Shown here in pieces: positions 7,954 to 53,391 of a DNA stretch of 64,000 bases. Positions within the stretch are counted from its first letter, which is position 1. Every line of letters starts with the position of its first letter. The position numbers and the translations under genes are program-made. Under the pieces are notes generated by a model. That model ran no database searches and was not told the DNA's origin. It worked only from the letters and a program-made list of their open reading frames with translations. Origin of the DNA: Collinsella sp. An2 (GTDB lineage: Bacteria > Actinomycetota > Coriobacteriia > Coriobacteriales > Coriobacteriaceae); assembly GCF_002160065.1 (NCBI RefSeq), contig NZ_NFJW01000004.1:113256-177255 (forward strand), in the 5' to 3' direction.

Positions 7954-8208
7954 GGTGTTTCCTTTCGCATCTCACGCTCCGTCGGGAACGTGGCCGCGCT
8001 GCGGATTTTGAGCGCGGGAGGCAGTAGCTGTCTAGGTGCGGTGTCGGTTATACCCCGCTGACAAATCGTCAATAGCGGATCATAGTCCGAATTCATACGT
8101 TCTGCAAAATCCTATCGAGCAGATAGGGAGAACTGCTGTTGCCGTAGATGCGTCAATGGGGTCCAGGCGAGCTGCCAAACGTGAGCGTGGGGCCGCGTCA
8201 TGCACACT

Positions 8209-8341
8209 CGTTTCGGAAAAGGGCGTCCGATTCGGGAACCCTCGAGTAGCCGAGATATTTCTTCAAAGAAATCGCAGGTCAGAGCATCGCACTTTTTGGG
8301 TTACTCGGCGATTTCGGAAATGGACGCCCTTTTCCGAAACG
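8209..8341. repeat. Palindromic intergenic element, family 3, copy 1
   Basis: CGTTTCGGAAAAGGGCGTCC at 8209-8228 is repeated as an exact 20-bp inverted copy at 8322-8341. Inside lie further imperfectly paired arms (CTCGAGTAG against TTACTCGG). A second copy with the same 17-bp core is at 53234-53362. No transposase lies inside, so it resembles a MITE or large REP-type element. The rest of the 7954-8644 gap holds the promoter region of the M60-like gene and a candidate promoter for the next gene. Confidence 0.85.
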
Positions 8342-8505
8342 ACTGTTTTGAGACTGCTCGGATCGAGGACAAAATCCTGTAGGAAACGGCCTACATCGGT
8401 AAGGCTAAAGCTGCATACGAATATCAGGTCGCTCAAAACGCCGTCCTTAACACGCAAAGAGGCCTTTGAGCACCCCAGGACCCGGTCTGAGCTGACAGAG
8501 AATGG

Positions 8506-18594: not shown

Positions 18595-18955
18595 TGGTCA
18601 AAGGAGGGTCCTCCTGGGCAAGGCGGGTCTGCAAGGTGTGAGCCGATGGTCAAAGTTGCCGCCTGCTGGGCATGGAAAGTGCGTCGGGGGAGTCTCGGTG
18701 GTCAATTCGTGCGCGTGCTGGGCAACAACCTGCGTTTTTTTCGCATGTTGCTGCTCATCAAGCGGCGCGTGCATACCCAGGAGAGGACCATATCGACCGG
18801 TAGTGCGCCTTCAGCGAGAAACGCGTGCCCAGAGCGCGGAATTTATGACCAGCCGCATCCCCGTCCGGGGATGCTCGTGCCCAGAGCGCAGTCAAAGTGA
18901 CCAGGTGTAGGTGCCCGGCGAAATACCCCTGCCCAGGGGAAGCTACATTTGACCA
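18595..18955. repeat. Family 1 bidirectional 52-bp-period array, copy A
   Basis: Forward units TGGTCAA-N12-CTGGGCA start at 18595, 18647 and 18699. Inverted units TGCCCAG-N12-TTGACCA (with small variations) start at 18774 (degenerate), 18826, 18878 and 18930. Every within-block step is exactly 52 bp. The internal gap is always 12 and the inter-unit gap 26, and the gap sequences are not conserved. The middle step from last forward to first inverted unit is 75 bp. Short ORFs drawn across this region in the track carry no recognisable domain. Confidence 0.9.
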
Positions 18956-36600: not shown

Positions 36601-36750
36601 CGGACACGGGGCACCCGCTCTTATACCGCCATGATTGTGGCTTCGTCCGTCGCGCTACGTCGCGGCGACAGGCCGCAGGTGCGCCTTCATAGCCAACGTT
36701 CCGTTCGATCATCGTCGGGGCACAAAACAGCCCTGATCGTGTGTCAAAAT

Positions 36751-36877
36751 CGCCGTTTTGTACGACTTGATTTCGTTATACATTTTTGGCAGGTTTTATG
36801 CATTCATTTATCTGGCCTTTTGTTATCGAAAATGGCCTCATCAGATGAAGCTGGAATTCTAGTCGTACAAAACGCCG
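36751..36877. repeat. Imperfect inverted repeat of about 127 bp, AT-rich interior
   Basis: CGCCGTTTTGTACGACT (36751-36767) pairs with AGTCGTACAAAACGCCG (36861-36877) at 15 of 17 positions, and the pairing extends outward over about 15 more bases with mismatches. The interior includes GGTTTTATGCATT, recalling the termini of the element at 31249. There is no credible ORF. It fills the second half of the 838-bp gap 36223-37060. Confidence 0.65.
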
Positions 36878-37060
36878 AGTTTTGCACACATCGGGACCAG
36901 ATTTGTACCTCACCGGTCCCGCAGGCTTTCTGCTCGATGCATAAACCGAGTGCATGACATGTGTGGCGCTCGCTCCGGGGAAGCGCCGGCCGTCGCGGCG
37001 GCACGGCGACGCGAATCCGCATGTCAGCGGTGCGTATTGCCGCCGGCGAAAGCCGCCGCC

Positions 37061-43238: not shown

Positions 43239-43547
43239 TGGTCAAGAACGTTGCCCGCTGGGCAGGATACTCGCGCTACCAGCGTGTCGCTGGTCAATCT
43301 TCTCCTCCGCTGGGTACGGCATGTGCGCGACGGTGCCGTCGTTGGTCAAAAGCCTCGTCCGCTGGGCATCAAGCCGTCGGGTGAAGAGATCCTGTTGGTC
43401 AATTTGAGTGACCCCTGGGCAAAAGAGGCTCGTTATAGGCGAGCGAGGCGCGCGCTTACGTCTTGTAGTTGCCCAGGCGAGCATGCAATTGACCACCTAG
43501 GGGCTGTGGCGGCGCAATCGTTGCCCAGCGCTCACCATAATTGACCA
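43239..43547. repeat. Family 1 bidirectional 52-bp-period array, copy B
   Basis: Forward units TGGTCAA-N12-CTGGGCA start at 43239, 43291, 43343 and 43396 (the second reads CTGGGTA). Inverted units TGCCCAG-N12-TTGACCA start at 43470 and 43522. Steps are 52, 52, 53, then 74 across the centre, then 52. The N12 and 26-bp gaps differ between units and from copy A at 18595. It lies between rplL and galU. Confidence 0.92.
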
Positions 43548-43851
43548 ACGAGGGGACGCGTCGCTTAGGGGCGCGTCGCCTCGGTCACCTGCTCGCATAT
43601 GGCTATCTGTTCGTATGTAGCCACCGGCTTGCATATGGCCACCGGCTTGCATGCATCCATCCGCTCGCCTGCAAAAACAAGCCGGCCACAGACGCTAGGG
43701 CTGCAGCACCTTGTGATTTGCTTGAGATTTTTTCCTATTGGTGTGTATCGCGGTACTATTGCTTGCGTATTGCGTACCTATGTCTTCCGACACGCGAACG
43801 TCGGGGGGCACACATTTGCGCCGTTTTCCTTGGCGCCCGAAAGGAACCTCA

Positions 43852-53183: not shown

Positions 53184-53233
53184 CTATGGAAACGCTGAAT
53201 ATGGGCCTTCGCGACGACCCTCAGCACGTTCGA

Positions 53234-53362
53234 TTCGGAAAAGGGCGTCCCTTTCCGGAATCGCCGAGTAGACTCTTAAGCTCCGATCCATCTACCAGGT
53301 GTTTTGTCAGTCCAACATACTTGTCTACTCGGCCAATCGCGTTTCGGACGCCCTTTTCCGAA
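53234..53362. repeat. Palindromic intergenic element, family 3, copy 2
   Basis: TTCGGAAAAGGGCGTCC (53234-53250) is exactly inverted at 53346-53362. An inner pair, CCGAGTAGAC/GTCTACTCGG, is also perfect (10 bp). The termini match the element at 8209-8341, while the centres differ. The right arm ends about 30 bp before the LytTR gene start. Confidence 0.88.
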
Positions 53363-53391
53363 GCGAGTGAGCATGAGGAGGCGCGGGGGCG

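Follow-up and report, generated by a model that had tools for sequence, protein, structure and literature searches.

Helically phased arrays of a bipartite DNA site in Coriobacteriaceae and a candidate PD-(D/E)XK partner protein

Two arrays in the window

The window, i.e., the whole stretch of 64,000 nucleotides that was analysed, contains two arrays of a 26-bp site with the pattern TGGTCAA-N12-CTGGGCA, copy A (18595-18955) and copy B (43239-43547). Their parts are as follows.

Copy A
18595..18620, + strand, forward unit 1 of 3, 26-bp site TGGTCAA-N12-CTGGGCA, 0 mismatches
18647..18672, + strand, forward unit 2, 0 mismatches
18699..18724, + strand, forward unit 3, innermost, 0 mismatches
18725..18773, no strand, 49-bp centre between the innermost sites, constrained in length and free in sequence
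18774..18799, - strand, inverted unit 1, innermost, degenerate, 3 mismatches
18826..18851, - strand, inverted unit 2, 1 mismatch against TGGTCAA
18878..18903, - strand, inverted unit 3, 1 mismatch against TGGTCAA
18930..18955, - strand, inverted unit 4, outermost, 0 mismatches

Copy B
43239..43264, + strand, forward unit 1 of 4
43291..43316, + strand, forward unit 2
43343..43368, + strand, forward unit 3
43396..43421, + strand, forward unit 4, innermost, reached by a 53-bp step
43422..43469, no strand, 48-bp centre
43470..43495, - strand, inverted unit 1, innermost
43522..43547, - strand, inverted unit 2

A sequence-only reading of this DNA had described copy A as seven units in 52-bp steps, arranged in two blocks that face each other. 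All seven units were recovered, the steps within the blocks are all 52 bp, and the step across the centre from one facing block to the other is 75 bp. The phasing is exact throughout copy A, but copy B has one 53-bp step and a centre step of 74 bp, so that 52 bp is not absolute. Sixteen site matches with at most three mismatches were counted in the window against 4.75 expected, a number reached in none of 100 shuffles. Immediately downstream of copy B (window 43586-43675), an 18-bp direct repeat is present in four copies.

Design of sites and arrays across the genome

The genome scan that the sequence-only reading had proposed gave 92 matches at no more than one mismatch in the genome of the window (G000), against a single match for the reversed pattern. 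Nearly all of them lie within arrays with steps of 51-53 bp, which speaks against an occurrence at chance frequency; matches standing singly outside arrays are rare. About 15 arrays are present in this genome, copy A being one of them. Complete arrays consist of two to five forward 26-bp sites, a fixed centre, and then inverted sites, and the reverse order was never seen in them. A position-weight view of 96 units yielded one asymmetric, bipartite 26-bp consensus site, TGGTCAAWTT-N-YG-N-CTGGGYA, both boxes of which are versions of TGGKCA placed 20 bp apart. The boxes are thus kept, as had been proposed, but the 12-bp gap, which had been taken to vary freely, is partly constrained within this consensus. 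Most arrays of one genome have the boxes alone in common and are unrelated in their linkers, which carry little information in Enorma and hold a third box, CGTAGCA, at +33 to +39 in genus g4.

A degraded coding repeat is unlikely because a step of 52 bp is not divisible by 3 and the arrays are intergenic. Neither do the arrays have the near-identical repeats with unique spacers of a CRISPR, which the earlier reading had also argued against: their repeats are not identical, share only the boxes, and flip in orientation at the centre. No CRISPR was reported for the E. massiliensis genome (PMC3746427).

Some arrays and repeats of this genome have further features. Three arrays (L032, L035, and L041) adjoin genes for large surface proteins with SLH domains, and two of these arrays are 77% alike and seem to have been duplicated together with the gene. 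A 130-bp repeat is common to three loci of the genome (L032 6733-6860, L035 9850-9977, and L031 7064-7191), none of which matched Rfam.

Distribution, conservation, and helical phase

Among 400 genomes of the class, with one genome per species, 52-bp tandem pairs were found only in G000, in Enorma phocaeensis (G065), which belongs to the same genus as the window genome, and in two uncultured Coriobacteriaceae (G054 and G055). The boxes of the latter two read TGGTCACGA...TATGGG, in the same 20-bp register as in Enorma. A first view that arrays are confined to these four genomes was wrong, as it holds only for 52-bp steps with TGGTC boxes. Arrays with the CTGGGC site of Enorma occur in Collinsella G034, with steps of 73-74, 84, and 95 bp and an innermost outer length of 101 bp, equal to that in Enorma; G034, G044, and similar handles are assigned to Collinsella by inference from genus size and family. 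Sites of the form TGGACG...TATGGA, in steps of 41-42 and 50 bp, lie in G058 near tyrS and a relative of the protein discussed below.

Seven array loci of G054 were fetched, and each has a counterpart at the orthologous position of G055, six of them without an internal indel. Over these seven orthologous arrays, identity amounts to 97.9% for box 1 and 96.7% for box 2, compared with 80.6% for the internal gap and 72.5% for the linkers. The linker sequence therefore drifts, whereas spacing and boxes are preserved. Only six classes of distance occur between the last forward site and the first inverted one: 64, 74-75, 84, 116, 127, and 137-138 bp. All of them agree with 10.5 n + 1 (R = 0.958 for a period of 10.5 bp); for these six classes, the phasing has a p of about 1e-4 with the period fixed and of 7e-4 with the period free. 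The steps between sites across genomes, 41-42, 50, 52, 73-74, 84, and 95 bp, are likewise all near multiples of 10.5 bp.

Centres quantised at 10.5 bp support a DNA-bound protein rather than an RNA. An RNA stem was already doubted in the sequence-only reading; the 12-bp gaps of forward and inverted units are not complementary (identity 0.42, compared with 0.40 between unrelated arrays). The centres in Enorma fold no better than their shuffles, and no match to Rfam was obtained with six array loci. What speaks for RNA comes from genus g4, in which the long centres (L076, L078, L079, L084, L086, L087, and L088) contain strong hairpins, several of them sharing CGCCTGAGAAGCC, that look like terminators inside the array centre. 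On this balance, a structured RNA, a terminator repeat, a CRISPR, or a degraded coding repeat is a highly improbable explanation of the arrays. Three independent tests support the earlier proposal of a helically phased lattice of candidate protein-binding sites, as opposed to an RNA, a CRISPR, or a coding repeat.

A candidate partner protein

Two of the arrays of the genome enclose a gene, referred to here as gene340.

C34:28297-29316, gene340, 340 codons, between two arrays, 84 kb upstream of the window

When 19 genomes were searched with the gene340 protein, its best relatives were those of the three other genomes with 52-bp arrays (51-60% identity), and relatives in the remaining genomes reached 48% or less. 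In all four genomes with 52-bp arrays, gene340 or its closest homolog adjoins an array. The copy in E. phocaeensis was suspected to be a pseudogene, which was rejected since its frame is open. The family has invariant residues E202, D239, and E250-x-K252, which correspond to the catalytic motif of PD-(D/E)XK nucleases. Ten of 11 members matched MTES_1575 and eight matched DUF559, with profile matches that range from sub-threshold to weak. MTES_1575/DUF559 have been placed in a group of Vsr-like nucleases (PMC3710099), and the gene340 family is predicted from these motifs to be PD-(D/E)XK, DUF559/MTES_1575-like. A single-sequence AlphaFold prediction reached a mean pLDDT of 31.6 and did not confirm the fold. 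In the N-terminal half, no DNA-binding domain was recognised by Pfam or NCBIfam in the 11 members.

Inverted pairs of sites were found beside relatives of gene340 in 28 of 31 loci, compared with six of 20 control windows (Fisher p of about 1e-5), usually directly upstream of the start codon; several genes of the family are flanked by elements on both sides. Within the clade, TGGNCAAA forms the outer box, and every protein has an inner box of its own. Protein identity correlates with site identity (Mantel r = 0.78, n = 16), also over the 12 non-redundant protein-site pairs left after the removal of near duplicates (r = 0.45, p = 0.0003). On the basis of linkage, phylogenetic profile, and co-variation, the gene340 protein is probably the binder of the arrays.

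Other candidates for this role were considered. The gene of the nucleoid protein NA37 adjoins one array but is present in 64 of 67 genomes and does not discriminate between them. The counts of tyrosine recombinases do not track the arrays, and neither do those of LytTR regulators, of which G054 and G055 have one each and genomes free of arrays up to eight.

Wider families of dispersed pairs

The exact TGGTCAAA form of the dispersed pairs occurs in 15 of 67 genomes of the family, while the reversed control matched one genome; with this exact pattern, which would miss divergent boxes, the elements were absent from most Collinsella genomes. For 56 dispersed pairs collected by pattern over a searched range of 178-206 bp, the outer lengths were only 184-186, 195-197, or 204-206 bp. 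Three Collinsella pairs that were compared between species had identities of 0.88-0.89 in the arms versus 0.64-0.68 in the middles. Within this wider kind of element, no form is more regular than the 52-bp array of the window.

More site families were observed in G000. A second TGGTCAA family, with the inner box CACTGAGGTAGTTTTT, is present at C8:43461-43639, C42:20858-21043, and C46:79303-79487, and one of its copies lies upstream of a gene340 paralog. At 8208-8342 and 53225-53371 of the window, there is an inverted-pair element with arms TCGGAAAAGGGCGTCC (four exact matches versus 0.07 expected) that looks like a further site family of the array and pair kind. Another inverted pair, with arms GCCGTTTTGTACGACT, spans 36750-36878 of the window; its site also occurs in a pair beside a DUF559-like paralog at G000:C25 (L250:2432-2577), and the window pair represents a third or fourth site family in dispersed form.

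Gene context and turnover

With gene orientations from a simple codon-usage gene caller, which makes them rough, 31 of the 43 gaps with arrays were tandem, 12 convergent, and none divergent, against 29 divergent among 165 other gaps (p of about 2.5e-4). The neighbours are unrelated housekeeping genes. Only about two of 14 array positions are shared between Enorma species and no single position is therefore essential; at the tyrS and clpX loci of relatives without arrays, no array remnant was found. Mapping by means of a complete Collinsella chromosome, the synteny of which with Enorma is unproven, put the skew minimum at a distance of over 0.5 Mb from 16 of the 18 marker genes.

The avoidance of divergent gaps, the rarity of isolated single sites, and a design that stays constant while positions turn over would suit chromosome-structuring sites, i.e., insulators or nucleoid anchors comparable to matS, SBS, and parS, bound by a protein other than that of gene340 and with the nuclease genes merely nearby. 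This is considered unlikely, as a nuclease homolog adjoins an array in each of the four genomes and tracks array presence, the site families next to more distant relatives are unrelated and co-vary with the protein, and the ori-ter mapping of the arrays gave a loose skew only. Quite unlikely, too, are arrays that serve as enhancers or operators of their neighbours in a conventional transcription factor regulon, for instance that of a LytTR-type regulator, the sites of which are direct repeats about 21 bp apart. Such a regulon would accord with the 20-bp direct repeat of TGGKCA, with a LytTR gene located less than 2 kb from one array, and with elements upstream of the nuclease genes, but not with neighbours of unrelated function, the avoidance of divergent promoter regions, or LytTR numbers that vary independently of the arrays.

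Signs of movement were also seen. A direct repeat of 71 bp, which copies the 3' end of the upstream gene, borders the pair of arrays around gene340. Together with the flanking of nuclease genes by elements, on both sides in several cases, and the missing remnants at tyrS and clpX, this could be explained by miniature mobile DNA, MITE- or REPIN-like, that is moved by the nuclease and selected mainly for mobility rather than for a host function. We regard this as conceivable though doubtful, because linkers are mostly unrelated within a genome and boxes are kept at orthologous positions, a conservation that non-functional copies would not show. The flanking repeat occurs at one array locus only, and no target-site duplications were seen; transposon ends with target duplications were rejected on account of this single locus. 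Most arrays share boxes only, and the likeness over the whole length and the target-site duplication that mark a MITE or an IS were thus not found. A viral or plasmid-like origin was set aside as well, with three single matches in viral contigs and no relatives of the protein there.

Comparison with known systems

The nearest known arrangement is that of the RAYTs, the REP-associated tyrosine transposases, and the REPINs, which are REP doublets (PMC3116915). In both cases, a single-copy chromosomal gene of the nuclease type is flanked by inverted extragenic elements, elements are dispersed, and each paralog has its own element family; inverted extragenic doublets, beside the enzyme gene as well as dispersed, were indeed found here. 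The palindromic REP core and the pairing spacer that form the REPIN hairpin were not, the site being asymmetric and the gaps non-complementary. The protein class differs too: with its conserved E, D, and ExK, the gene340 protein is predicted to be PD-(D/E)XK, whereas a RAYT is a Y1/HUH tyrosine transposase. The sites described here are long, asymmetric, and bipartite instead of a palindromic 16-mer, their spacing is helically quantised with unpaired spacers, and there are about two to 15 copies per genome. BIME/REP elements are likewise extragenic, inverted, multi-copy, and located at the 3' ends of genes; unlike them, the array sites are non-palindromic and conserved in place, with free linkers and a fixed helical phase.

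The antitoxins AbiEi and Rv2827c (type IV) autoregulate through paired inverted repeats that they bind upstream of their own genes (PMC7319586). As in these systems, for which binding is known, inverted sites of about 23-26 bp lie upstream of the gene itself. The gene340 protein differs in its predicted PD-(D/E)XK domain, and its sites are chromosome-wide and amplified into arrays; none of the 11 family members matched AbiEi in the Pfam and NCBIfam scans, and a PDB profile search gave no match to 1ZEL. The plasmid centromeres of ParR-parC and sopC, too, have binding sites in tandem that form two blocks around a centre. The present arrays differ from these in that they occupy many chromosomal loci and have their blocks head-to-head, and no ParM or ParA partner was identified here. 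No published description of such an arrangement was found in the open-access literature, which is weak evidence of absence.

Proposed explanation and significance

We consider it likely that the array is a multi-site operator of the chromosomal PD-(D/E)XK (DUF559/MTES_1575-like) protein of gene340, in a REPIN-like, vertically inherited system of a protein plus its sites. The gene340 protein would bind the sites cooperatively on one face of the DNA, bring the two inverted blocks together in a looped complex, and regulate its own gene by way of the upstream element. The dispersed elements would be distributed targets of the gene340 system, which may organise or insulate the chromosome or may be miniature elements that the nuclease copied in the past, as has been proposed for RAYTs and their REPINs. 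That the elements are conserved at their positions speaks for a host function; the turnover of positions, the gene flanked on both sides, and the one 71-bp target-like repeat argue that elements have also moved. Vertical inheritance, with host-level selection maintaining the REPIN-like system of protein plus sites, is the favoured possibility.

With confidence only a little better than even, we extend this to an undescribed class of elements, in which many paralogous, Vsr/DUF559-like PD-(D/E)XK proteins of the Coriobacteriaceae would each have their own dispersed family of long, bipartite, head-to-head, and helically phased sites, amplified in some lineages into arrays of up to nine sites. Proteins and sites would form orthogonal pairs that diverge together and assemble looped complexes at chosen positions of the chromosome.

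The analysis connects many unexplained DUF559/Vsr-like genes, which belong to common gut Actinobacteria, with specific DNA targets, through which the function of these genes can be tested directly. It describes helical phasing that selection has maintained across hundreds of base pairs and at many loci of the chromosome, and it makes naturally diverged protein-site pairs available for studies of recognition. If the elements are mobile, a RAYT-REPIN-like arrangement would have arisen independently for a second time; if they are structural, they would be a new kind of bacterial chromosome landmark.
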